A stretch of DNA of 64,000 nt from Caldifarciminota bacterium (GTDB lineage Bacteria > Hydrothermota > Tepidihabitantia > SM23-42), in assembly GCA_020343595.1 (NCBI GenBank), contig CP070802.1, positions 366,643-430,642 on the forward strand, given 5' to 3'. Shown here in pieces: positions 4,400-56,059 of the stretch. The notes under the pieces were generated by a model, which saw only the letters and a list, made by a program, of their open reading frames with translations, had not been told where the DNA came from and did not search any database. Numbering within the stretch: position 1 is the first letter of the stretch; each line of letters starts with the position of its first letter. Made by a program: the position numbers and the translations under genes.

Positions 4400-5959
4400 T
4401 TAATTTTTGTGTAAAAGCCGCTTAATGTAATCCCGTGCTTCGGTTACGCCCATTAGCATGCACACAGCATAGCAGACAATCATTGCTACACCGCCGGCGA
4501 GAATCAGGTTCAGTGCCTGCCAGATGAATGTAATACCTAGAATATTTGTGAGTATCCTGTGCAGCAGGATTCCGGCAAATCCTCCCACGATCGAGGCAAT
4601 GAGCAACCGCATGAAATAGTCCACAAGTGGGGAGACTTCATATTTGCCGATCTTTGCCGGAAGTCTATGCATGAGTATCCACAGGTTCACGAACGAGGAT
4701 ATTGTTGTTGCCAGTGGAAATGCACGGAATCCAATGACACGCATCAGCCCCAGGCTGAGTATGATATGCAAACCCACGGCAACGAAACTTGCGTACATGG
4801 GCGTTCGGGCGTCGTGGTGTGCATAATAGACTGTCGCGACGTTTCTAATGCCAGCAATAAAGGGCACCCCGACTATGTAGAGAATGAGTGCTTGCGTTGT
4901 AGCACGGGTATCAAAAGATGTGAACTGTCCTCTTTCGTAGATCAGTCGCGTTATTGGATGGGCGAGTATCGAAATGATGACCGATGTGGTAACCGTAAGA
5001 AAGAAGACGAGTTTCAGAGAATCAAAAAGTGTTGCCCGTGCCGCGTCGAATTTCTTTTCAGCCACGTGCTGCGATATTGTCGGCAGTGCTACAGTTCCCA
5101 CCGCAACACCAAAGAGACCGAGCGGAAGATGCATGACACGGAATGCGTAGTTCAGCCATGTCATACTTCTTTCCTCGAGAAACGAAATAAGAAAAGTATC
5201 GACTGCCACGTTAATGCGTGATGCGGCAAGTCCGAGTGCAACTGGCACGAAGAGTACGAGAATTCTTCTCAGTGCCGGGTCACGGAAATTGATATACAGT
5301 CTGTAGTGAAAACCCCTGGCAAAGAGGACGGGCACCTGTATCAGGAACTGCAAGAGTCCGCCGATCAGAATACCATAGGCCATGGCGAATATCGGATCGG
5401 TGCCTCTTGAGATAAAATAAGAATAAGATAGTAGAGGTATGGCTATTGAAATGATGTTCAGAAAAGCAGGTGCTACTGAAGGAGTAAAAAATTCTCGTTC
5501 GGTGTTGAGATAGCCCATGGCCCAGGCGGCGAGGGCAACAAAGAGAAGGAAAGGGAACATGATAACGGCCAGGCTGGTCGTAAGTGCTTGCTTGTCGGGT
5601 ACATTGCCAAAACCGAAGGCAATTATCTTGACGAGGTAAGGCGCAAAGACAATACCCAGGAGAACGATGGCGCCTACCGTGATGAGAAGTATGTTGAATA
5701 TGTTGCTGGCGAGCAGATTTTGCTGCTCTTTGCCTTTCTGCTTTTCTGCCGTGAGGACCGGTACAAAGGCCGCTGAGAGTGCCGTCTCGGCAAAGAGGTC
5801 ACGCAGGAGGTTGGGGATGCGAAATGCCGCGACAAAGGCATCGGTTGACCGTCCGGCGCCGTATAGAAAGGCGAATACAGATTCCCTTATCAAACCAAAG
5901 ACCCGGCTGATAGCCGTGCCAATGGTAAATGCCCTCACACCTTTCGTGATATCGGCCAT
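4400..5959 (-). CDS. murJ: Lipid II flippase MurJ (MviN family)
   Basis: The 519-residue, very hydrophobic protein has the length and the roughly fourteen membrane segments of the family. The N-terminus is characteristic: RVFGLIRESVFAFLYGAG, followed by DAFVAAFRIPNLLRDLFAE. MurJ moves undecaprenyl-linked lipid II across the inner membrane for peptidoglycan synthesis. The ATG lies only 6 bases downstream of a consensus -10 box and lacks a ribosome binding site, so the transcript is predicted to be leaderless. It is transcribed divergently from gap. Few polar insertions are visible and the ORF appears intact. Confidence 0.95.
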   Translation of the reverse strand: MADITKGVRAFTIGTAISRVFGLIRESVFAFLYGAGRSTDAFVAAFRIPNLLRDLFAETALSAAFVPVLTAEKQKGKEQQNLLASNIFNILLITVGAIVLLGIVFAPYLVKIIAFGFGNVPDKQALTTSLAVIMFPFLLFVALAAWAMGYLNTEREFFTPSVAPAFLNIISIAIPLLSYSYFISRGTDPIFAMAYGILIGGLLQFLIQVPVLFARGFHYRLYINFRDPALRRILVLFVPVALGLAASRINVAVDTFLISFLEERSMTWLNYAFRVMHLPLGLFGVAVGTVALPTISQHVAEKKFDAARATLFDSLKLVFFLTVTTSVIISILAHPITRLIYERGQFTSFDTRATTQALILYIVGVPFIAGIRNVATVYYAHHDARTPMYASFVAVGLHIILSLGLMRVIGFRAFPLATTISSFVNLWILMHRLPAKIGKYEVSPLVDYFMRLLIASIVGGFAGILLHRILTNILGITFIWQALNLILAGGVAMIVCYAVCMLMGVTEARDYIKRLLHKN

Positions 5960-20852: not shown

Positions 20853-21465
20853 GAGTTTTTTACGCTGGATGCTACTCACAAAACGCTATACGCTACATAC
20901 TACACACGAAACACATAAGACGTTAGTAGTGTTACCACAACAAACCGATTACGTAATCGTGCTTCGTACATCGTATTCGTATGACCTCCGCCTCCGCATT
21001 ACATTAGAAATCAGATTTCAGCGTTGCTCGGTTTCGAAAGGCGTTACGTTGTCGAAACTCGGCTTCGGTTTCGTACCGTAAGACGTAGCCTTTCGAGTCG
21101 AAACGGGCATCGTAACCGTTGAACGTTTGACCATTGTCGTACGTTGTACGGTGTAGCAGCCAGTATGGTCACTGGGTTTGGTCGTATGATACTAACCAAA
21201 AAACAAGAACATATAACCATATAGGCAGCTAAACCCAAGAACCAAGGACTATGTTCATTATCTGTTTTTGTAATTGAGATTTGAGTATTTGGATTTATTT
21301 GGTATTTGTTGTTTGTGATTTGGAATTTACAGGAACTGTCTTTCGGTGTTCGTAACGTAACCGCCAATCGATACCATTATCCGTTTCGTTTTTCGAAACC
21401 GGCAAACGAAAGACGATTAGTCGAACTACACTGGCCGCTAAAACCAACAACCTAAGACTGTGGGA
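20853..21465. repeat. Composite repeat region D2-B4-A3-C2
   Basis: The gap of about 610 bases between two minus-strand genes is built of repeats. D2 (20947-20980) matches 10138-10171. B4 is at 21062-21133, A3 at 21155-21230 and C2 at 21271-21338. From about 21221 to 21347 the sequence matches 44317-44443 almost base for base, which is the best-conserved repeat pair in the window. A further B-like fragment follows to about 21400. No gene is seen. Confidence 0.75.
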
Positions 21466-44102: not shown

Positions 44103-44522
44103 TAACACTGAGACACTGACCCCATTCCTGGTTTTGAAAATGGTCCGATGGTTGGGGTTGGGAAGCTTGACGTTACTGCCAAATATTGTTTCTTGGATCC
44201 CAACATCTCAACCTCAACCTAATGACAAAGTAATAGGTTATAAGTTGTGGCTGCCCGTATTGTCACTTGGCTTGGTCCTTGGCTACAAACCATCAAACCA
44301 AGACAAACGACCATACAGGCAGCTAAACCCAAGAACCAAGGACTATGTTCATTATCTTTTTTGGTAATTGAGATTTGAGTATTTGGATTTATTTTGTATT
44401 TGTTGTTTGTGATTTGGAATTTGCAGGAACTGCCTTTCGGTTTCGTACCGCCAGCCGTAACCTTTTTGGTCGATACGGGCTTCGTGACCATCAGACGTTA
44501 CCTGTATTTTACTTTTCAGTGT
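44103..44522. repeat. Composite repeat region A4-C3-B5
   Basis: The gap between ribD and hypE carries A4 (44249-44323), C3 (44365-44431) and B5 (44432-44502). The segment 44317-44443 is nearly identical to 21221-21347. A4 is close to the reverse complement of the element at 57929-58004. No gene is seen. Confidence 0.75.
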
Positions 44523-45524
44523 TTAGCAGATCCGCGGCAGCCCCTCGGCTTCCATCTGGATTAACGGATGCGTGCCACCAATTGAAGTGTGCAGCCATAC
44601 CCCCTGAGGTTCTTTTACAACCTCGCCGATGACCGCCGCGTGCTTTCCCAATGGATGGCCGCGCATGATGCTCAGTATACGCTCCGCTTTCTTCTTATCG
44701 ACGAAGGCGATCAGTTTACCTTCATTGGCGATATACAGGGGATCGAGGCCGAGTATTTCGCTCGCACCCCTTACCTGCTTTTTTATCGGCAGTGCGGTCT
44801 CTTGAATAACTATACCCTTGCGCGAGCCTTCCAGGACTTCGTTGAGAACCGATACGACTCCCCCGCGTGTCGGGTCTCGCATGAAGTGCACCGCCGGTCC
44901 TCCCTTGAGCATCTCGTGGATGAGACCGTGGAGCGGCGCAACATCGCTCTTGACGCTGAATTTCAGGCCGAGGTTCAAGCGTTCATTCATGACCGCAATG
45001 CCGTGATCACCGATCGTGCCGCTGACCATGATCTGGTCGCCAGTGCGTATTTTGCTTTTGCTCAAACTCTGTTGAATGACCCCGACGCCTGAGGTTGTGA
45101 TGAACAGCTTGTCGGCCTTGCCTTTTTCGACTACCTTCGTGTCGCCGCAGACAACGCTCACACCCGCGGTGCGTGCGGTGCTCGCGGCTGATTTCAATAT
45201 TTCCTCGAGATGTGAAAATTCAAAACCCTCCTCGATAATTAGTGCGAGAGACAATGCTTTTGGTGTTGCACCTTTGACAGCAAGGTCATTTATCGTACCG
45301 CAAACCGCAAGTTTTCCGATGTCGCCTCCGGGAAAGAAGATGGGATCGACGACATATGAATCAGTGGTAAATGCAAGTCTTCGTTTTGTAGCTGGTAGTT
45401 CTGCTGCATCCTCAAGACGCCGCAGCACATCATTCTTGAAATACTTCAGTATCACGTCACGGATCAACTTTGACATCAGCAACCCACCCGATCCGTGCCC
45501 GAGACGAATTCTATCCTGTTTCAT
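44523..45524 (-). CDS. hypE: Hydrogenase maturation protein HypE
   Basis: The 333-residue protein belongs to the AIR synthase-like superfamily. RLGHGSGGLLMSKLI at the start, LAFTTDSYVVDPIFFPGGDIGKLAV and DPTRGGVVSVLNE are HypE motifs. The C-terminus ends in PRIC, the tetrapeptide whose Cys is carbamoylated by HypF and dehydrated to thiocyanate for the NiFe cyanide ligand. No other hyp gene or hydrogenase is in the window. It follows a FemAB-like gene by 63 bases on the same strand. Confidence 0.95.
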   Translation of the reverse strand: MKQDRIRLGHGSGGLLMSKLIRDVILKYFKNDVLRRLEDAAELPATKRRLAFTTDSYVVDPIFFPGGDIGKLAVCGTINDLAVKGATPKALSLALIIEEGFEFSHLEEILKSAASTARTAGVSVVCGDTKVVEKGKADKLFITTSGVGVIQQSLSKSKIRTGDQIMVSGTIGDHGIAVMNERLNLGLKFSVKSDVAPLHGLIHEMLKGGPAVHFMRDPTRGGVVSVLNEVLEGSRKGIVIQETALPIKKQVRGASEILGLDPLYIANEGKLIAFVDKKKAERILSIMRGHPLGKHAAVIGEVVKEPQGVWLHTSIGGTHPLIQMEAEGLPRIC

Positions 45525-46725: not shown

Positions 46726-47808
46726 GTGAAGAAGCGTTATATCTTCCTCGATATGCTCAGGGCTCTGGCCGTTGCCGAGATGATCCACGGCCACAGTCTC
46801 GACGGATTGTTGCAAAATACGCTACGTAGCACTTCCTTCTTTGTTAACTGGACGCACGTAAGGGGCTATACAGCGCCTGTCTTTCTGTTCGCTGCGGGGT
46901 TTGCTTTTGCCCTAGCCACTCTGCCCAGAAGTCACGTCTACTCGCAGTTCTCCAGGACTCTGCTCACTAGACTGCGTCGGTTGTTCTTTATAGTACTGCT
47001 TGGATATCTGATGTATCTACCGTTTTTTTCGCTACGAAAAACAATTTTGTCGGTGGGAACATCCGGATGGGATAATTTTTTGAGAGTTGATATTCTGCGA
47101 TGTATCGGGGTCTCGGCTCTTTTTCTACAATTCTGGTTTCTGCTGAAGCCGAAGCATGTGATTACATGGATAACAATCGGAGCAATAACCGTTGCGCTGC
47201 CCATTTTGACGCCCGTAATCAGACAGAGCGAATTCGTTCAGAGTCTGCCTGCTTTCATCGAATACTACTTTGTGGACTCGCGGTTTCCGCTATTCTATTA
47301 TACATCATTTCTCTTCGCCGGGTTCTTAATGGGATTGTCGTATACCAAGCTACGTAATAATTGGTGGATATATTCAACAGCGACTGCAGCTCTACTCATT
47401 ATTTCCGGGCTCGTAGCAAAGTCGTCAGGGGGTTTGGCTGCATTAAGCGCTTTTGTCGTTAAGTGCGGCATCATAATATTGCTGACAGTCATGCTCGAAA
47501 GGGGAGAGAATTTATGGGAACGTTTGCCCCTCGTTGCGCAATATTTCGGTAAGGAATCACTAGTCGTCTATGTAGTGCACTTGATGATCATTTACGGCTC
47601 GGTAGCCAACACGGGGCTGGTATCATACTGGGGAAGGACGCTCTCTTATGCTGAGGTGTACTTGTTCATCCTCTGGTTATTTGCCGCGATGGTGCTTCTT
47701 GCCTATCTCTGGCACAGGCTGAAGATTGAGCACATGCCGGTCGCGCGCTGGGTGAAAAATACCGTGTATTGGTCATTTCTTTTAATCTTCTTGGTAAGAC
47801 CATATTAG
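46726..47808 (+). CDS. Multi-pass membrane acyltransferase-like protein (DUF1624/HGSNAT-type)
   Basis: This 360-residue protein has about ten hydrophobic segments. The N-terminal YIFLDMLRALAVAEMIHGHS carries the conserved His of heparan-alpha-glucosaminide N-acetyltransferase-like and acyltransferase-3-like proteins, and APVFLFAAGFAFALA is a further match. FGKESLVVYVVHLMIIYG near the end is also typical. It starts at GTG. It may acylate a cell-surface glycan; substrate unknown. Confidence 0.78.
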   Translation: MKKRYIFLDMLRALAVAEMIHGHSLDGLLQNTLRSTSFFVNWTHVRGYTAPVFLFAAGFAFALATLPRSHVYSQFSRTLLTRLRRLFFIVLLGYLMYLPFFSLRKTILSVGTSGWDNFLRVDILRCIGVSALFLQFWFLLKPKHVITWITIGAITVALPILTPVIRQSEFVQSLPAFIEYYFVDSRFPLFYYTSFLFAGFLMGLSYTKLRNNWWIYSTATAALLIISGLVAKSSGGLAALSAFVVKCGIIILLTVMLERGENLWERLPLVAQYFGKESLVVYVVHLMIIYGSVANTGLVSYWGRTLSYAEVYLFILWLFAAMVLLAYLWHRLKIEHMPVARWVKNTVYWSFLLIFLVRPY

Positions 47809-47879
47809 ATGAAAGTCTTGAAATCATGGCGCTTTATCAGTATTTTGGCAGCATCTTGTGATTCGTTGTTGATTCCCCC

Positions 47880-47907
47880 TTGACAAACGGCGTCTTTTTG
47901 TTATGAT
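47880..47907 (+). promoter_or_regulatory. Promoter of the marR-hdr-flx operon
   Basis: TTGACA (47880-47885), a 16-base spacer and TATGAT (47902-47907). It is followed immediately by two palindromes, consistent with repression. Confidence 0.8.
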
Positions 47908-47911
47908 ATAG

Positions 47912-47940
47912 TTGCTAATAGCAATAATTGTTAGTGGCAA
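47912..47940. promoter_or_regulatory. Putative double MarR operator
   Basis: TTGCTAATAGCAA (47912-47924) is a perfect palindrome about a central base. A second, imperfect copy TTGTTAGTGGCAA (47928-47940) begins 16 bases later. Both lie between the -10 box and the marR start, where a bound repressor would block transcription. Confidence 0.7.
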
Positions 47941-47955
47941 TAAAATCAAGGAGAT

Positions 47956-48366
47956 ATGAGCAAGAAACTATTTGAGTTGATCGTTATGCTGATGAAGAAA
48001 TGCCAGCTGACAGAAACCAGGATCAGAAACGAATTTGGTCTCTCGGTAGCCGAATATAACGCGCTCCTGACGATTGGACGCGACGAGAAGATGTTGTGTA
48101 ACGCGTTTTCGGAGAAGATGGGTATTTCCGCATCCAGGGGCAGCCGGATAATCGACCGGCTAACAAAAAAGGGATTTGTTAAAGGTGAAGCAGTTCCTGA
48201 TGACCGCAGGATTCTCAAGATTTCGATGACCGATAAGGGTATTGAGTTGAAGGGCCTTATCAATAAGAAGATGGAAGAGTGTGAAAACAACATATTAGGC
48301 AAGTTATCAAAGCAGCAGCGTGAGGATGTGCGCGGCGCACTCGAGATGCTGTCGGAGATAATGTAG
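47956..48366 (+). CDS. MarR-family transcriptional regulator
   Basis: The 136-residue winged-helix protein shows the family layout: LSVAEYNALLTIGRDE, AFSEKMGISASRGSRIIDRLTKKGFV as the helix-turn-helix, and the wing VPDDRRILKISMTDKG. It follows AAGGAG. It likely represses its own operon through the two palindromes at its promoter and responds to a small ligand or redox state; only one Cys cluster region (residues 17 and 51 area) is visible, so redox sensing is unproven. Confidence 0.92.
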   Translation: MSKKLFELIVMLMKKCQLTETRIRNEFGLSVAEYNALLTIGRDEKMLCNAFSEKMGISASRGSRIIDRLTKKGFVKGEAVPDDRRILKISMTDKGIELKGLINKKMEECENNILGKLSKQQREDVRGALEMLSEIM

Positions 48367-48380
48367 TCGAAAGGAAGTAT

Positions 48381-48860
48381 ATGAAGGGAAGAGAAATTGC
48401 CGAAGCAACAGTAGTCAATTATGCGCAGATGTTTGATCTCTCGCTCACCAAGGAGAAGATGATGGACATGATGCCCGGTCTGCTGTTGTTTCTTGCCCGG
48501 CGGCCTGAAATGGTCACACCGGCCTTGGAGAGGATGCTTCCGATGATGGAACAGATGAATATCGAAGTCAACCACGATTTGCTGATCGAGATGATGCCAT
48601 CTGTGGTGAAAGCAGTGAATATGGAGCCGGGGATAGGTGGCGACATCTTCAAGAGAATGGTCCCCATGATGGATGCGTTCAAACTCAAAATGAATTTCTA
48701 TGTGATGAAGAATGTCATGGGGATGATGATGTTGATGATGTTGCGCCATCCGACGACGATCCCCGGTATGATGAAGGTAATGCCCAGGATGATGGATTTC
48801 AGTTTCTACACAGATTTAAGGAATAAGTTCAAAGGAGTATTCCATGCACGAAACAAATAA
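48381..48860 (+). CDS. Methionine-rich helical protein of unknown function
   Basis: This is a 159-residue protein with 30 Met residues (19%), many as MM or MMM. It is helical, with two similar segments (ALERMLPMMEQMNIEV and IFKRMVPMMDAFKLKM) and a hydrophobic segment KNVMGMMMLMMLRHP that is Met-rich rather than a plain membrane helix. No Cys is present. It lies between marR and hdrC and overlaps hdrC by 17 bases, so it is surely part of the operon. I do not recognise a family. Protein-protein packing or soft-metal binding are possible. Confidence 0.75.
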   Translation: MKGREIAEATVVNYAQMFDLSLTKEKMMDMMPGLLLFLARRPEMVTPALERMLPMMEQMNIEVNHDLLIEMMPSVVKAVNMEPGIGGDIFKRMVPMMDAFKLKMNFYVMKNVMGMMMLMMLRHPTTIPGMMKVMPRMMDFSFYTDLRNKFKGVFHARNK

Positions 48861-49542
48861 AGAATGGTTGCCCGGTTTCGACAAGAAATTTGCCGAACTC
48901 ACCCATCAGATGGTGAAGGATCTGGAAAAATGCCTTCAGTGCGGTAAGTGTACCGGGCAGTGCCCGGCCGCGAAGTTATCTTCATACAACCCGAGGGAGA
49001 TAATACGCGATCTGCGCATGGGAAACGTGGAAAAAGTGATCAGCAGCCATGAATTATGGTTGTGTTTCTTCTGCAGTGGTTGCTATGCAGTGTGCCCGCG
49101 TGATATAAATTTTCCGTTCGCGGTTTCCATGCTGCGCTATGCTGCACTTGCGCAGGGATACGGTTGGGAAGAGGTGAAGAAGATCAAAGACCCGTATGCT
49201 CAGGATTACTACAGTACAGGGCTATCGGTTAATGTTAACGAAAGGAACCTCGGTGTCAGGAAAGAGATCGCGAAGAATTCAGGGACCGACGGTCGGATTG
49301 AGACGGTACGCAGGAAGATGGGTCTGCCGCCAAAGAGGCGGGTGTCTGAACGCGCGATGAGCGAGATCAAATTCATCGCCGATGCAACGGGAATGACCGA
49401 TCTGTTCAAGGAAATAAACAAGAAGAAGGCGAAGGAGAAGAAATGGAACTACGGCAGCCCGGCTGATATGGTGAAGGTCAAGAAGGGAGCGAATCAGAAA
49501 TTCATCGACGTTGAGGATGAGGAAAAGGAAAAGATATGCTAA
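48844..49542 (+). CDS. hdrC: Heterodisulfide reductase subunit C-like iron-sulfur protein
   Basis: The 232-residue protein has two 4Fe-4S sites: CLQCGKCTGQCP near residue 27 and CFFCSGCYAVCP near 75. The basic, Lys-rich C-terminal region is longer than in methanogen HdrC. HdrC passes electrons between HdrA and HdrB. It is followed by hdrB with a strong AAGGAGG. Start ATG after AAAGGAG. Confidence 0.92.
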   Translation: MHETNKEWLPGFDKKFAELTHQMVKDLEKCLQCGKCTGQCPAAKLSSYNPREIIRDLRMGNVEKVISSHELWLCFFCSGCYAVCPRDINFPFAVSMLRYAALAQGYGWEEVKKIKDPYAQDYYSTGLSVNVNERNLGVRKEIAKNSGTDGRIETVRRKMGLPPKRRVSERAMSEIKFIADATGMTDLFKEINKKKAKEKKWNYGSPADMVKVKKGANQKFIDVEDEEKEKIC

Positions 49543-49555
49543 GGAGGATTTGAAG

Positions 49556-50509
49556 ATGCCACGCCAGGAAGTCCTAGAGAAAACAAAGTTGTCGGACAGG
49601 ATGTTTCTATTCAAACCGTGTGTTGGGAGCAACAAATACCCCGGGTTGATCACTGCGTCGATCGAATTCTGCCGCAAACTCGGTATCGAACTCGTGACGA
49701 GCGATGATCAGACCTGTTGCGGAGGGTTCTTAACATTCACCAATGTCGCCCAGCCAACCAGCACCATGCCCGCAGTCGCGCGCAATATTGCGGTTGCCGA
49801 AGAGATGGGGTTGGATATTCTCACCCTGTGCAACGGTTGTCACACGTTCCTGACCGAATTTTCGCATTTTATGAACGACCGCCCGCCGGTGAAGAACGTG
49901 GTCAATGTTATCTTATCAATGATCGGTCGCGAGTACAAGGGCAGCCAGGATATATACCATTCGCTGGAAATAATCTACAAGCTCAAGGAGAGGATCAGGG
50001 CAAACGTGACCCGGTCGCTCAGCGCGATGAGATTCGCGACTCATTATGGATGTCATTACTTGAACGGCTTTAAGAAGACCGCCCTCGACGATCCTCATAT
50101 GCCGACGATCATGGAAGAGTTGATCGAGGCGATGGGTGGTGAGATCGCGGAGTACGGTGAGAACAGGACTTGCTGTGGTACAGGTTTGACACAGATCATC
50201 ATCAACAAGGAAGACCTGTCGCTGCCGCATACCAAGATGAAGCTGGACAATCTGAACGCTGCAGAACCGGATGCCGTGGTTGTCGTCTGCCCGTACTGCC
50301 TTGCTCAGGTAGACAGGATGCAGCAGAAACTTAATTACCGCGGGTCCGGCAAGTACCGGGTGCCGGTCATCCATCTGGTTCAACTGGTGGCCTTGGCACT
50401 GGGAGTCGATATGGTGAAACTTGGATTCGAGGCGCATGCGATCAGCTTCAAGAATTTCTTGAAGAAATTCGATTCGATCCATTCAAAAGCGGGGGTGCAT
50501 GATGGCTAA
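49556..50509 (+). CDS. hdrB: Heterodisulfide reductase subunit B-like protein (two CCG domains)
   Basis: The 317-residue protein has both non-cubane cluster motifs. The first uses Cys near residue 23, TCCGGF and CNGC; the second uses the GCHYLNG Cys, TCCGTG and CPYC. In methanogens these clusters reduce the CoM-CoB heterodisulfide; in bacteria a comparable thiol or disulfide partner is expected. The ATG at 49556 is chosen because AAGGAGG (49541-49547) precedes it by 8 bases; an in-frame codon 45 bases upstream is in hdrC. Confidence 0.93.
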   Translation: MPRQEVLEKTKLSDRMFLFKPCVGSNKYPGLITASIEFCRKLGIELVTSDDQTCCGGFLTFTNVAQPTSTMPAVARNIAVAEEMGLDILTLCNGCHTFLTEFSHFMNDRPPVKNVVNVILSMIGREYKGSQDIYHSLEIIYKLKERIRANVTRSLSAMRFATHYGCHYLNGFKKTALDDPHMPTIMEELIEAMGGEIAEYGENRTCCGTGLTQIIINKEDLSLPHTKMKLDNLNAAEPDAVVVVCPYCLAQVDRMQQKLNYRGSGKYRVPVIHLVQLVALALGVDMVKLGFEAHAISFKNFLKKFDSIHSKAGVHDG

Positions 50510-52460
50510 GGTCGGTGTATTCGTATGTCACTGCGGAGTGAACATCGCGGCCAAGGTTGATGTAAAGAAGGTCGTCGATACGCTGAAAGACATGCCCGAA
50601 GTCGGCTTTGCTGAGGAATACAAATTCATGTGCTCATCGCCCGGCCAGGAGCTGATCAGAAAAGCGATCAAGGATAATAGCATTAACCGTGTGGTCGTTG
50701 CCGCGTGCTCACCGCGCATGCATCTTCCAACTTTCCAGAAGGCACTGGCAAGCGAGGGATTGAACCCGTATCTTGTCTCCATGGCGAATATCCGTGAGCA
50801 GTGCAGTTGGGTGACCGATGACCCGGATGAGGCTACGCAGAAAGCGATCGATCTCGTAGCGCGCCAGATAAAACGTGTAGTGCACCAGGATCCCCTTGAT
50901 GATATCTACGTACCCATGACCAAGACTGCTATCGTCATTGGTGGTGGTATTGCTGGTATCCAGGCTGCACTCGATATCGCCGACGGCAACCGTAAGGTCA
51001 TCCTTTTGGAAAAAAGCCCGAGTATCGGCGGTCGTATGGCACAACTTGACGAAACATTTCCAACCCTGGACTGCAGCCAGTGTATCCTGACGCCGAAGAT
51101 GGTTGAGGCGGCACAGCATCCGAACATTGAGATCCGTGTCAACTCAGAAGTAAAGAAGGTTGATGGTTATGTTGGGAACTTCGAAGTAACCATCGAAAAG
51201 AAAGCTACTTATGTCGACGCGCAGAAGTGTATTGGCTGTGGTATTTGCCAGGAGAAATGCCCGGTCAAGATCGTGCCGGACGAGTTCAATGCCGGACTGA
51301 ACACACGCGCCGCCATTGCCATTCCATTCCCTCAGGCAGTACCGGCGATCCCGGTCATTGACCCGGAGTATTGCCGGAAAATCAAAGAAGACAAATGCGG
51401 TGTCTGTGCAAAGATATGCCCGGCCGAGGCAATCGTCTTCGATGATGCACCCAAGCAGGAGACGGTCAGTGTTGGTGCCATTATCGTTGCCACGGGCTAT
51501 AAGGAAATGGACCCGGCAGTATACACGGAATACGGCGGCAAGAAATACCCCGATGTCATCACCGGAATGCAGTTTGAACGCCTGGTTTCATCGACCGGCC
51601 CGACCGGTGGTGAGCTGAAGAGGCCGAGCGACGGTGTGATACCGAAGACCGTCGTTTTCGTTCAGTGTGTCGGGAGCCGTGATGAATCTAAAGCGCATGC
51701 CTATTGTAGTGGGATCTGCTGCATGTACACGGCCAAACACACAATGCTTTACAAGCACCACGTGCCGGACGGCCAGGGATATGTGAGTTACATCGACGTT
51801 CGTGCGCCGGGGAAGACCTACGAAGAGTTCGTGAGAAGGGCGATCGAAGAGGAAGGTGTCAGATATCTACGCGGCCGCGTGGCAAAGATTCGCCGGCTGC
51901 AGAACGGGAAGTATCGTGTCTACACAGAAGACACCCTTGTCGGGAGGGCCGTGCACGTCGACGCGGACATGGTCGTGCTTGCGAGCGCGGTAGAACCCCA
52001 GAAAGATGCAGTAGACCTGGCTCAGATGCTTGGGATCGCTTACGATGCGGACGGCTTCTACACGGAAGCACATCCAAAATTGAAGCCGATCGAGACTGCC
52101 AGTGCTGGCATTTTTCTCGCCGGTGCCTGTCAGGGGCCCAAGGATATACCGACGAGCGTGCAGCAGGGCAGTGCGGCCGCCAGCAAGGTTCTTGCTTTGT
52201 TCGCAAGAGACACAATGGTCAAATCACCGCAGATCGCCACTGTAGATCCGACTGCTTGTACCGGTTGTTTAACATGCTCGTATGTTTGTCACTACTCTGC
52301 GATCGAGGAAAAGGAATTTGGTAAGCATCGGGTTGCCGAGATCATACCTGGTAAATGTCAGGGTTGCGGTGCATGTGTAGCAACGTGTAAGGGGAAGGCG
52401 ATCACACTGGCTGGTTTCAGCGACGATGAAATCTATGAGGAGATCGTATCATGCAAATAG
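50502..52460 (+). CDS. hdrA: Heterodisulfide reductase subunit A-like flavoprotein
   Basis: The 652-residue protein has an N-terminal domain (GVFVCHCGVNIAAKVDVK, MCSSPGQELI) and then the FAD-binding site GGGIAGIQAALDIADG with EKSPSIGGRMAQLDETFP. The C-DCSQC-ILTP region is present. Two internal ferredoxin motifs lie near 245 and 295 (CIGCGICQEKCP; CGVCAKICP) and two more at the C-terminus (CTGCLTCSYVC; CQGCGACVATCKG). HdrA flavin is the bifurcation site in methanogens. Two adjacent ATGs occur at 50499 and 50502. It overlaps hdrB by 8 bases. Confidence 0.94.
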   Translation: MAKVGVFVCHCGVNIAAKVDVKKVVDTLKDMPEVGFAEEYKFMCSSPGQELIRKAIKDNSINRVVVAACSPRMHLPTFQKALASEGLNPYLVSMANIREQCSWVTDDPDEATQKAIDLVARQIKRVVHQDPLDDIYVPMTKTAIVIGGGIAGIQAALDIADGNRKVILLEKSPSIGGRMAQLDETFPTLDCSQCILTPKMVEAAQHPNIEIRVNSEVKKVDGYVGNFEVTIEKKATYVDAQKCIGCGICQEKCPVKIVPDEFNAGLNTRAAIAIPFPQAVPAIPVIDPEYCRKIKEDKCGVCAKICPAEAIVFDDAPKQETVSVGAIIVATGYKEMDPAVYTEYGGKKYPDVITGMQFERLVSSTGPTGGELKRPSDGVIPKTVVFVQCVGSRDESKAHAYCSGICCMYTAKHTMLYKHHVPDGQGYVSYIDVRAPGKTYEEFVRRAIEEEGVRYLRGRVAKIRRLQNGKYRVYTEDTLVGRAVHVDADMVVLASAVEPQKDAVDLAQMLGIAYDADGFYTEAHPKLKPIETASAGIFLAGACQGPKDIPTSVQQGSAAASKVLALFARDTMVKSPQIATVDPTACTGCLTCSYVCHYSAIEEKEFGKHRVAEIIPGKCQGCGACVATCKGKAITLAGFSDDEIYEEIVSCK

Positions 52461-52885
52461 AGAAAGAGCCAAGAATTCTGGCAATCCTCTGTAAGTGGTG
52501 CAGCTACGCAGGAGCAGACCTGGCAGGTACAAGCCGGTTCAACTACCCGGCAAATGTCAGAATCGTACAGGTTCCGTGCTCAGGCAGGGTCGATCCGATA
52601 ATGATATTCAAGGCGTTTGTTGAAGGCTACGACGGCGTTATGGTGAGTGGTTGCCATCCAGGCGACTGCCACTATGGCACAGGGAATTACCACGCGCGGC
52701 GCAGGATTGCGGTTGCGCGCCGTTTGCTTGAATTTGTGGGCGTACATCCTGACCGAATGCACTTTACCTGGATCTCAGCGGCCGAGGGCAAGAAGTTCGC
52801 CGAGGTGTGTTCTGAGTTCACGGATAAATTGCGACATCTTTCAGGAACGGAAAAAACACTTGCACGGAAGGAGCTCGCGACATGA
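52451..52885 (+). CDS. flxD: FlxD / MvhD-like electron transfer protein
   Basis: This is a 144-residue protein of the FrhD/MvhD family. The LCKWCSYAGADLAGTSR and VPCSGRVDPIMIFKAF segments carry the 2Fe-2S Cys residues, and GCHPGDCHYGTGNYHARRR is diagnostic. It links HdrA to its electron-donating module. It overlaps hdrA by 10 bases and flxC by 4. In Desulfovibrio-type operons this position is FlxD. Confidence 0.93.
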   Translation: MQIEKEPRILAILCKWCSYAGADLAGTSRFNYPANVRIVQVPCSGRVDPIMIFKAFVEGYDGVMVSGCHPGDCHYGTGNYHARRRIAVARRLLEFVGVHPDRMHFTWISAAEGKKFAEVCSEFTDKLRHLSGTEKTLARKELAT

Positions 52886-53727
52886 AGGCAATGAGAAAGA
52901 AAATCAAGGAGCTCTTCGCGAACGGCGACGTCGATGTAGTACTCGGATATCGCGAGGATCCGGCAAGCGGTGAGGTAAAAGCATCGGTCTTTAAGAAGGA
53001 TGAAATGCTCGAAGATATGGTCTTCGATGAAAGATGCGTGCAAAATCTTGTTAATTATCTACCGACGCTTGTTGCACGATACAGTAAGGTCGGTATCGTA
53101 TTGAAGGGCTGCGACGGACGTTCGCTGGCCACCCAACTCGTCGAGCACCGCATAAACAAAAATCAGATTGTCGCGCTCGGTGTGGGGTGTGAGGGCGTGA
53201 AAGTAGGTGGTAAGGACGCGGATAAGTGTGAAGATTGCCCTACGAGCATGTCGCCGGTCACCGATCATGAGATCGGTGATAAGAAGCAGAAGAAAGACCC
53301 AGTATTCTCAAAGGTCGAAGAGATTGAAAAGATGTCACCGGCCGAGCGCTGGAAATTCTTTGCAGAATACTTTGAGAGATGTGAGCGCTGCTATGCCTGC
53401 CGGCAGATCTGCCCTTCCTGTTATTGCGAGATCTGCGTTGCCGACCAGCAGGAACCGAAGTGGATCGAGCCCTCGGCAAAACTCTCGGCGAATACCATGT
53501 GGCATTTGATCAGAGCATATCATCTGGCCGGACGCTGCGCGGATTGCGGAGAATGCGAGCGCGTCTGCCCCCAGGAGATTCCGATGAGACTTATGAATAA
53601 TGCACTGGAAAAAGCAGTTCACGAATTGTTCGGTGTCCGTCCCGGGATGGATCCCGAAGAACTGCCGCCGCTTGTCGTGTTGAGCAAGGAAGATCCGGAT
53701 ACGATCATGGGGGGTAAGCATGAGTAA
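52882..53727 (+). CDS. flxC: FlxC-like 4Fe-4S electron transfer protein
   Basis: The 281-residue protein has an N-terminal part like the CoF420 hydrogenase beta-subunit family (VGIVLKGCDGRSLATQLVEHR, VALGVGCEG) and two ferredoxin-type motifs in the C-terminal half (CERCYACRQICP with CYCEIC; CADCGECERVCP). By comparison with characterised Flx operons it passes electrons between the FAD/NADH subunit and FlxD. The ATG overlaps flxD (ATGA). Confidence 0.88.
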   Translation: MKAMRKKIKELFANGDVDVVLGYREDPASGEVKASVFKKDEMLEDMVFDERCVQNLVNYLPTLVARYSKVGIVLKGCDGRSLATQLVEHRINKNQIVALGVGCEGVKVGGKDADKCEDCPTSMSPVTDHEIGDKKQKKDPVFSKVEEIEKMSPAERWKFFAEYFERCERCYACRQICPSCYCEICVADQQEPKWIEPSAKLSANTMWHLIRAYHLAGRCADCGECERVCPQEIPMRLMNNALEKAVHELFGVRPGMDPEELPPLVVLSKEDPDTIMGGKHE

Positions 53728-54763
53728 ATGGCACAAATTAAAACGAACTGACCTGAAGGATTTTTTGTCCCGGCTTGCGGAAAAATGGGAGGTATGGGTG
53801 CCCTACCGTGTAGATGGAAAGTGGGAATTTGGCATTTATGCTCCGGACAGGGAAATGGATTTTCCGGAGAGTGTTATCCATGTTTCAATGAAGAACCTTT
53901 TCTTCCCCAAGCGGCGTCCCATAGCAAAATATGAAGAGGATAGCAAGTGGTCTATGCAACCGGTCGCTGCCGATGACAAGCCGCGCATAGTAATGGGTCT
54001 GCATCCGTGTGATGTCGCCGGTATCGAGTACATGGATAAGGTTTTCTTAAATTCTGAACACAAGGATGTGTTATACGAATCGGAGCGTAAGCGGACCGTG
54101 CTTGTCGGTATGCTCTGCAGCGAAATGGCAGATAATTGCCACTGCACAGACCGGGGTCTGACTCCGGATTCTGCCAGTGGTATGGATGTAGCATTTGCGA
54201 AGGTAGATGATTACTATTTGTTCAAAGGCATGACTGACAGAGGAAAAGAGATCATGCAATCCGAGTATCTGAAGGCTGTTGGTGATGCTCCGGAGAAACG
54301 AAAATGGCCCGCCGGCAAGTATGCCATCGCGTCGCCGGAAGAATTCATGGACATGTACGACGACAAGATATGGCATGAACTTTCGGACATATGTTTGACC
54401 TGTGGTATCTGTACCTATGCGTGCCCGACCTGCGTATGCTTTCTGGTGACCGATGAAAAGTTCAAGGGTAAGGGTGAACGAGTAACGGTGTGGGACAGTT
54501 GTCAATTGCAGTCTTATTCAAGAATGGCGGGCGGCCACAATACAAGGAAGACACCCGCGAGCAGGGTGCGTAACCGGACGCTTGATAAGTTCGCTTACAG
54601 TCATCTCAGGTATGGGCAGATCTCCTGCACTGGCTGCGGTCGTTGTGTCATGGTCTGTCCGTTGAAGAGGAGTTTTCCCCAGCTCGGCGCCCGACTATCA
54701 GAAAGAATACGAGATAAGAAAAAGAGCAAAGCCGGCACCGGTGCCCGGTCGAAGGAGGATTGA
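53720..54763 (+). CDS. flxB: FlxB-like (sulfhydrogenase beta-type) 4Fe-4S protein
   Basis: The 347-residue protein resembles HydB/HyhB subunits of soluble hydrogenases and FlxB. GLHPCDVAGIEYMDKVF and GMLCSEMADNCHCTDRG are typical of the N-terminal domain. Two 4Fe-4S motifs follow: CLTCGICTYACPTCVC near residue 224 and CTGCGRCVMVCP near 305. It relays electrons from the FAD/NADH subunit. It overlaps flxC by 8 bases. Confidence 0.9.
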   Translation: MSKWHKLKRTDLKDFLSRLAEKWEVWVPYRVDGKWEFGIYAPDREMDFPESVIHVSMKNLFFPKRRPIAKYEEDSKWSMQPVAADDKPRIVMGLHPCDVAGIEYMDKVFLNSEHKDVLYESERKRTVLVGMLCSEMADNCHCTDRGLTPDSASGMDVAFAKVDDYYLFKGMTDRGKEIMQSEYLKAVGDAPEKRKWPAGKYAIASPEEFMDMYDDKIWHELSDICLTCGICTYACPTCVCFLVTDEKFKGKGERVTVWDSCQLQSYSRMAGGHNTRKTPASRVRNRTLDKFAYSHLRYGQISCTGCGRCVMVCPLKRSFPQLGARLSERIRDKKKSKAGTGARSKED

Positions 54764-54764
54764 T

Positions 54765-55580
54765 ATGGCGACGATCGAACTCGTGCCAGAACCGGCAATG
54801 ATCAAGAAAGTGATTCAAGAATCGAGGGATGTTAAGAGCTATGTGCTGAAGCTCGATAAATCCCGGAAAATAGCTGCACGGCCCGGGCAGTTCGTTGAAG
54901 TGTCGGTTCAGGGTTTTGGCGAAGCCACCTTCGCAGTTACCAGGACAAGCAAGGATGGAAGCGATTTCACGATTTCGGTAAAGAGAATGGGACATCTGAC
55001 GAAAATGCTGCATCGCGCCGTACGGGGGGATATGGTCGGCGTCCGGGGACCTTACGGAAACAGTTTTCCGGTCGACGCATGGAAGGGTAAGGATATTGTT
55101 ATTATCGGTGGTGGCATTGGGCTTGCGCCACTACGTCCGATCATTGACCATATCCTGCAGCATAGAGAAGATTATGGAAAATTGGAGATCATTTTTGGGG
55201 CGCGTACACCAGAGGATATTCTCTACAAAGAAGACCTCGGGATCTGGGAAAATGACGAGACTATTCAACTGCATACAACGATCGATGTTCCTTTTGAGGG
55301 CTGGAACGGCCGGGTCGGCGTCGTTCCAGTCGTGGTCAAAGACCTGGCTCTGAAGCCAGACAGCAGGGTGGCGGTCGTGTGCGGACCACCGATAATGATA
55401 AAATTCACGGTTGCTGCTCTGAGGGAATTGAAGTGGTCGGATGATAGGATATACACTACGCTAGAAATGAAGATGCAATGCGGCATAGGCCAGTGCGGAC
55501 GCTGTAACATAGGCGAGAAATTCATCTGTAAGGATGGCCCCGTGTTCAGTCTCGATCAGATCCCCGAACATGCGCTGTAG
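54765..55580 (+). CDS. flxA: FlxA-like FAD/NAD(P)H-binding oxidoreductase
   Basis: The 271-residue protein is an FNR-like flavoprotein. ARPGQFVEVSVQGFGEATFAV is the FAD-binding barrel, GGGIGLAPLRPIIDHI the NAD(P) site, and the C-terminal MQCGIGQCGRCNIGEKFIC the PyrK-type 2Fe-2S site. It would oxidise NADH and feed electrons to FlxB. AAGGAGG (54752-54758) places the ATG at 54765 rather than an upstream GTG. It is the last gene of the operon and is followed by a terminator. Confidence 0.93.
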   Translation: MATIELVPEPAMIKKVIQESRDVKSYVLKLDKSRKIAARPGQFVEVSVQGFGEATFAVTRTSKDGSDFTISVKRMGHLTKMLHRAVRGDMVGVRGPYGNSFPVDAWKGKDIVIIGGGIGLAPLRPIIDHILQHREDYGKLEIIFGARTPEDILYKEDLGIWENDETIQLHTTIDVPFEGWNGRVGVVPVVVKDLALKPDSRVAVVCGPPIMIKFTVAALRELKWSDDRIYTTLEMKMQCGIGQCGRCNIGEKFICKDGPVFSLDQIPEHAL

Positions 55581-55620
55581 TCAGTGATTCGGACCTTCTA
55601 AATAATTCACTTCCACCTCC

Positions 55621-55650
55621 AAATGCCCCTCTGTATATCGAGGGGCATTT
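55621..55650. terminator. Terminator-like perfect hairpin after flxA
   Basis: AAATGCCCCT pairs perfectly with AGGGGCATTT around a 10-base loop. T-rich sequence follows on the plus strand and A-rich bases lead into it, so it may work in both directions. Confidence 0.82.
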
Positions 55651-55695
55651 CTTTGTGTATTAACCCGGCAGTATTCGTCATTTTTGTGAAACTTT

Positions 55696-55722
55696 TTGAC
55701 CTTGCGCTGCGTATAGTATAGT
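55696..55722 (+). promoter_or_regulatory. Possible promoter of the small secreted protein gene
   Basis: TTGACC (55696-55701) and TATAGT (55717-55722) with a 15-base spacer. The fit is weaker than at other genes. Confidence 0.5.
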
Positions 55723-55768
55723 GATGACTGACAAGAAAAGATTGTTCACAAGAAACAAAGGAGGAAAT

Positions 55769-56059
55769 ATGAGAATTTGCATGGCTATTTTGCTCTTGTC
55801 GGGCGTGTCGGTCGGGCAGTCAATATCAGACAGCGATGCATATGAAGGTCTGATGCCAGCGGTAGAGGTCGTTGCCAGTAGATATGACTGCGACGTGCCT
55901 GCTTATGTCGGGTCTCTGCCTGAAGTGGATGTTACAGCGCCACGTTATGAATTAGAGGACGACGCATGGAGCGGTTTGATGCCTGTAACCGATGTTACTG
56001 CAGTGCGGGCTGCGCCAGTCGATATTGCTTATTTGGGTAGCAAGGGCCTTGCCCGATAA
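55769..56059 (+). CDS. Small exported protein with three short repeats
   Basis: This 96-residue product follows AAGGAGG and starts with a signal peptide (ICMAILLLSGVSVGQS). The rest consists of three similar units: GLMPAVEVVASRY, GSLPEVDVTAPRY and GLMPVTDVTAVRA, each preceded by acidic residues. No family is recognised. It precedes a lipoprotein peptidase by 11 bases and may be its substrate or partner. Confidence 0.7.
   Translation: MRICMAILLLSGVSVGQSISDSDAYEGLMPAVEVVASRYDCDVPAYVGSLPEVDVTAPRYELEDDAWSGLMPVTDVTAVRAAPVDIAYLGSKGLAR

Follow-up and report, generated by a model that had tools for sequence, protein, structure and literature searches.

A 64,000-nucleotide stretch of the Caldifarciminota bacterium genome (GenBank contig CP070802.1, positions 366,643 to 430,642; the window) carries, at 47880-55650 on the plus strand, a run of nine genes that is preceded by a promoter and a double palindrome and closed by a terminator. 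Seven of the genes encode the subunits of a heterodisulfide reductase (Hdr)-Flx complex, one encodes a MarR-family repressor and the ninth encodes a methionine-rich helical-repeat protein. The operon probably specifies an NAD(P)H-linked, flavin-bifurcating Hdr-Flx enzyme that acts on a disulfide other than DsrC and is served by the methionine-rich protein as a dedicated accessory. The enzyme is of a known kind; the methionine-rich accessory protein is the new element. The locus can be described as a compact, apparently self-regulated, DsrC-less Hdr-Flx system plus one protein that belongs to no known family and co-occurs strictly with it. The host genome is a single contig of 2.37 Mb, which we examined through targeted searches and selected stretches, and its relatives are metagenome-assembled genomes (MAGs) of candidate division WOR-3.

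A complete Hdr-Flx operon and a ninth gene

Subunit identities were assigned by Pfam, NCBIfam and PDB searches. The features, all on the plus strand, are as follows (FAD, flavin adenine dinucleotide; FeS, iron-sulfur).

47880..47907, +, promoter: sigma-70-type TTGACA-N16-TATGAT with TG preceding the -10; 11/12 matches
47912..47940, +, putative double MarR operator: TTGCTAATAGCAA-N3-TTGTTAGTGGCAA, centres 16 bp apart, just 3' of the -10
47956..48366, +, marR: 136-residue MarR-family repressor with a winged-helix domain; PF12802 E = 9e-11, PF01047 E = 1e-7
48381..48860, +, methionine-rich helical-repeat gene: 159 residues, 30 Met, 0 Cys, three 41-residue repeats
48844..49542, +, hdrC: two [4Fe-4S] sites, Cys30, 33, 36, 40, 74, 77, 80 and 84
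49556..50509, +, hdrB: two CCG domains; TIGR03288 E = 1e-69; PDB 9sfi_C E = 4e-58, motifs aligned
50499..52460, +, hdrA: FAD and multi-[4Fe-4S] subunit, candidate bifurcating site; NF040770 E = 2e-238
52451..52885, +, flxD: MvhD/FlpD-type link subunit; PF02662 E = 4e-53; 9sw2_D E = 1e-45
52882..53727, +, flxC: FeS subunit; 7bkb_E E = 5e-23 over residues 154-266
53720..54763, +, flxB: FeS subunit, relative of AsrA/sulfhydrogenase beta; 9nez_B E = 1e-40; TIGR02910 E = 1e-44
54765..55580, +, flxA: predicted FAD/NAD(P)H-binding entry subunit with a [2Fe-2S] motif; PF00175, PF00970, PF10418; 9nez_C E = 1e-48
55621..55650, +, intrinsic terminator: 11-bp stem, loop of 8, T-rich tail

An earlier reading made from the sequence alone (the sequence-only reading) had described this locus as a MarR-controlled Hdr-Flx operon. 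The positions, the database searches and shuffling controls bear out its genes, their order and single polarity, the palindromes and the terminator, whose hairpin folds with z = -5.4 (0/200 shuffles as good). FlxA, FlxB, FlxC, FlxD, HdrA, HdrB and HdrC, each of which had been claimed, were all identified, and all lie in one cluster. The description "without gaps" overlooked the gene at 48381-48860: this open reading frame (ORF) fills the 478 bp separating marR and hdrC and ends 17 nucleotides inside hdrC. Similarly, the start-stop overlaps that had been described are found at four junctions (hdrB/hdrA, hdrA/flxD, flxD/flxC and flxC/flxB) but not between hdrC and hdrB, which are spaced by 13 nucleotides because the hdrB start is placed at ATG 49556, most likely the correct one. 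No Rfam element was found within 47600-55800. An antisense ORF at 47946-48749 (minus strand, 267 residues, histidine-rich) was rejected as an artefact of the ATG-rich methionine-rich gene opposite it; an automatic gene caller could choose this ORF over marR and the methionine-rich gene.

All seven subunits match chains of solved Hdr, Fdh-Hdr and sulfhydrogenase complexes over their functional domains. The sequence-only reading held that the metal and flavin residues are retained, and the alignments agree, with the cluster cysteines invariant across every available homologue. In HdrB, both CCG cysteine sets are complete and align with the motifs of solved HdrB proteins. Loss of these cysteines, named beforehand as evidence that would overturn the assignment, did not occur: 10/10 (Cys22, 54, 55, 92 and 95; Cys166, 206, 207, 245 and 248) are invariant in seven genomes. 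Residues 4-649 of HdrA align with 5odc_A (E = 1e-200); the subunit has 28 invariant cysteines and contains the FAD domain plus the inserted and C-terminal ferredoxin motifs. FlxC (16 invariant cysteines) matches the FdhB arm of the Fdh-Hdr complex in its C-terminal half, FlxB (15 invariant cysteines) matches sulfhydrogenase beta, and FlxA, in which Cys239, 244, 247 and 255 are invariant, matches sulfhydrogenase gamma. Binding of FAD, NAD(P)H and a [2Fe-2S] cluster by FlxA is predicted from its domains and cysteine motif.

The methionine-rich helical-repeat protein

Methionine makes up 18.9% of the ninth protein (30 residues), compared with an average of 2.7% for ORFs of the window (z = 11.8). 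Homologues are present in six other genomes at 67-93% identity, and within the genus dN/dS is ~0.02-0.04, indicating strong purifying selection; the ORF is therefore a real gene. The sequence is built of three 41-residue repeats (residues 30-70, 71-111 and 112-152), a periodicity reached by 0/2000 shuffles. An AlphaFold model made with seven sequences (pLDDT 78 overall, core mostly 85-92) places helix pairs at 24-40/42-58, 65-81/83-99 and 106-122/124-137, with the same 41-residue step. Over the shared core, methionine positions are retained in 27/30 cases, compared with 21/35 for Leu/Ile/Val/Phe (p = 0.01). Since methionine is retained more than these other hydrophobic residues, the methionines seem to matter in themselves.

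Pfam, NCBIfam and PDB contain no entry matching this protein; a sequence search of the PDB returned one chance match (E = 0.97), a Foldseek search with two models gave nothing below E = 0.78 in the PDB or among viral models, and tblastn of plasmids gave no matches. DUF1641 was considered as a family for its similar length, all-helical make-up and proximity to formate or Hdr genes. It was rejected, as PF07849 has no match in the host genome and hhalign gave a probability of 0.3%. We found no paper in the open literature linking methionine-rich proteins and heterodisulfide reductase.

The methionine-rich gene follows one type of Hdr-Flx operon

The methionine-rich gene is present in 7/147 WOR-3 genomes. 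FlxB at ≥56% identity (56-100%) is found in the same 7/147 only, and the remaining FlxB matches are below 40%, with one exception, a 104-residue fragment of 54% identity at a contig end in genome G054. This co-occurrence of gene and operon spans three genera. Five carriers belong to one genus (the host and four others) and have the complete operon including marR, with nearly identical junctions; a sixth, from the same family, has part of the operon, and the seventh, from the same class, has the operon minus marR. The recurrence of near-identical junctions in other genomes argues that the arrangement is not a product of chance. In carrier G012, a run of N in the scaffold splits the operon: one locus holds marR through the beginning of hdrA, and another (L121) holds part of flxC with flxB and flxA. 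Around 4873-4980 of locus L019 this nominally single-contig assembly looks mis-scaffolded.

The carrier without marR is a MAG from Lake Pavin, in which the methionine-rich gene is followed by hdrCBA and then by flxDCBA. Other WOR-3 genomes have HdrA-flxDCBA operons that share the flxD-C-B-A order adjoining hdrA but differ in having tandem hdrA genes, a FlxB of 29-40% identity and an hdrB that often goes undetected. These operons of the other type are mostly in genomes in which no methionine-rich gene was detected, and carriers G003 and G004, which additionally hold such an operon (L114 and L106, respectively), have no second methionine-rich gene. Thus, the carrier and Lake Pavin patterns indicate that the methionine-rich gene marks one Hdr-Flx type independently of MarR. 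We consider it unlikely that the locus is a plain Hdr-Flx system of the Desulfovibrio kind using a general disulfide such as thioredoxin, with the extra gene an incidental, lineage-specific neighbor. Such a system would account for the canonical subunits and for the thioredoxin encoded in the host genome at contig positions 1089904-1090209, and there is precedent for an Hdr-Flx without DsrC in Syntrophomonas (PMC6687939). However, strong purifying selection acts on the extra gene, and across three genera its presence matches that of the operon exactly.

Candidate disulfide partners and other Hdr loci

In Desulfovibrio, DsrC is the proposed partner of Hdr-Flx (PMC6687939, PMC10553843). The sequence-only reading had called for a search for DsrC-like partners, and this search came back negative: DsrC (PF04358) is absent from 7/7 carriers, while the same search does recover DsrC from E. 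coli and from further WOR-3 genomes. Therefore, the Desulfovibrio model does not transfer whole. A partner of the MetV-type methylene-tetrahydrofolate reductase kind was also sought, and PF12225 is absent from the host genome. A proposed link to ethanol oxidation was unsupported for the Fe-ADH family, whose sole match scores better as Fe-ADH_2 (zinc alcohol dehydrogenases were not searched). The methionine-rich protein occupies a partner-like place in an operon whose genome lacks DsrC, and could on that ground be imagined as the electron or substrate partner of HdrB. We rejected this role as highly improbable: the protein is free of cysteine in all seven homologues, which leaves it unable to carry a thiol/disulfide, and known cofactor motifs are absent from it.

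HdrB/HdrD-type CCG domains occur in at least four other places in the genome. At one of these, an hdrCBA set is followed ~1 kb downstream by a [NiFe]-hydrogenase-like ORF, which fits the Mvh-Hdr reported for the phylum in a recent survey of WOR-3 metabolism, where Flx goes unmentioned (PMC12542636). In another region (L020; contig positions 1055000-1074990), several hdrA, hdrB and hdrC-type genes and an mvhD-type gene form a large cluster. By eye, some of its ORFs resemble subunits of 2-oxoacid:ferredoxin oxidoreductases, and the cluster is possibly a further Hdr supercomplex. A 1110-residue HdrA-like ORF lies beside a CCG-domain ORF and an ORF that by eye is EtfA-like (L025 8414-13915, near contig positions 284400-289900). 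Within the window, a protein of the AIR-synthase fold resembling the hydrogenase maturation protein HypE is encoded at 44523-45524 on the minus strand, ~2.4 kb upstream of the operon.

Promoter, operator and MarR

The TTGACA-16-TATGAT promoter is the sole site scoring above 9 in the region, leads the next best by two, and is unchanged in position in five relatives possessing marR. The palindromes are TTGCTAATAGCAA at 47912-47924 and TTGTTAGTGGCAA at 47928-47940, and the motif TTGyTAATAGCAA-N3-TTGTTAnyrGCAA lies directly 3' of the -10 in 6/6 genomes with marR. When searched with a tolerance of three mismatches, this operator was found once per genome in the five genus carriers and nowhere in the three genus members without the operon; a control with the reversed pattern gave zero matches. 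Because the operator is conserved, single-copy and restricted to carriers, MarR appears to act as a dedicated autoregulator of the Hdr-Flx operon, and the earlier suggestion of MarR-regulated expression gains support from this pattern. The operon of the Lake Pavin MAG (L032) is preceded by neither marR nor a good operator but keeps the methionine-rich gene, which argues that MarR control is not intrinsic to the system.

MarR Cys16, Cys48 and Cys109 are invariant in an alignment of six homologues, down to 47% identity, and from these three cysteines we suggest that MarR may sense thiol or redox state. Cys109 is matched by a cysteine in the alignment with 5hlg, a staphylococcal MarR protein, and Cys16 lies beyond the aligned stretch. 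We take 5hlg to be AbfR, an oxidation sensor, and treat the match as a lead rather than an assignment to the Cys-based redox sensors of the OhrR/AbfR kind. A stress-sensing MarR would also suit a methionine-rich protein that shares the transcript and binds metal (e.g., Cu(I)/Ag) or scavenges oxidants. The invariant MarR cysteines are consistent with such a role, as is the protein itself, since methionine can both ligate soft metals and scavenge oxidants, and the protein has MMxMM and MMxxMPxMM motifs among its 30 largely invariant methionines. We nonetheless regard this role as improbable, because (i) the protein has zero Cys, only three His and no visible signal peptide, (ii) its gene adjoins hdrC and tracks the Hdr-Flx type also in the absence of marR and operator, and (iii) a scavenger has no need of position-specific methionines and prolines or of the repeat geometry.

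Proposed mechanism and the accessory role

In the mechanism that we favor, a soluble complex would pass electrons from NAD(P)H through FlxA, FlxB, FlxC and FlxD to the HdrA flavin. At this flavin the two electrons would part: ferredoxin would receive one, and the second would travel via HdrC to the non-cubane clusters of HdrB, which would reduce a non-DsrC disulfide; the reverse direction (confurcation) is the alternative. MarR would cover the start site through the two operator copies and silence this operon alone. The methionine-rich protein, translationally coupled to hdrC, could either be bound to the complex as a small subunit or act as an assembly chaperone. As a chaperone, its methionine-rich helix faces might provide a flexible hydrophobic surface like that of the M domain of the signal recognition particle (SRP) protein SRP54 (Ffh), which has methionine-rich amphipathic helices. 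This comparison is one of surface character: there is no sequence or fold match, and the methionine-rich protein differs in being formed of 41-residue tandem helical hairpins.

The methionine-rich protein is most likely an accessory to the complex, as an assembly factor or a small subunit; this role is favored by the strict link of its gene to one Hdr-Flx type, by the position of the gene ahead of hdrC and by the helical repeats of the protein. A bolder version, to which we give some weight while leaning against it, is that the protein is an obligate eighth component of this Hdr-Flx type, either a structural subunit or a dedicated assembly chaperone, that founds a new family and enables the use of a non-DsrC disulfide in WOR-3. 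Several points tell against the favored mechanism and accessory role. NADH dependence, as opposed to NADPH, and bifurcation itself are inferences from homology. The Lake Pavin homologue lacks the C-terminal tail and is separated from hdrC by 49 nucleotides with no overlap, which weakens the argument from strict coupling. The seven carriers, five of them in one genus, represent few independent events. Lastly, the deep search for the methionine-rich gene covered WOR-3 genomes, and the scan of named genomes used narrow patterns, so the family may also occur outside WOR-3.

Comparison with known systems

Desulfovibrio vulgaris is among the anaerobes for which FlxABCD-HdrABC has been described (Ramos et al. 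2015, as cited in PMC6687939 and PMC10553843). Compared by subunit type, the D. vulgaris system and the operon described here share all seven subunits in one cluster and a presumed common electron path. They differ in that the order here is hdrCBA-flxDCBA, marR and the methionine-rich gene stand in front, and DsrC is missing. Syntrophomonas BUT1 flxABCD-hdrABC is likewise DsrC-less, and the available text of its description does not mention a methionine-rich gene (PMC6687939). An Hdr-Flx without DsrC, as in BUT1 and in this operon, would need another disulfide carrier, and DsrC-less Hdr-Flx enzymes are known, with their disulfide and any extra components unknown (PMC6687939). For the present operon, both the identity of the disulfide and the role of the methionine-rich protein, in binding or in building the complex, become testable. 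A MarR operon with a single site also offers a route to the signal, and perhaps thereby to the substrate.

In the methanogen MvhADG-HdrABC and Fdh-Hdr complexes (5odc, 7bkb and 9sfi), HdrABC and MvhD/FlxD are homologous to the subunits described here over their functional length, and FlxC resembles the FdhB arm. The difference lies in electron input, which in methanogens comes through a hydrogenase or formate dehydrogenase, whereas here it would come through the predicted NAD(P)H-binding FlxA/B module, which is sulfhydrogenase-related (9nez).

Other features of the window

A dispersed repeat of 208 nucleotides is present at 21140-21347 and 44234-44441, the two copies being 86% identical; its reading frame gives SSCKFQITNNKYQINPNTQISITK, and 37 full or partial matches occur across the genome. 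Downstream of the operon, 55766-56059 encodes a small secreted-looking protein with no Pfam match and three near-repeats (GLMPAVEVVA, SLPEVDVTAP and GLMPVTDVTA).

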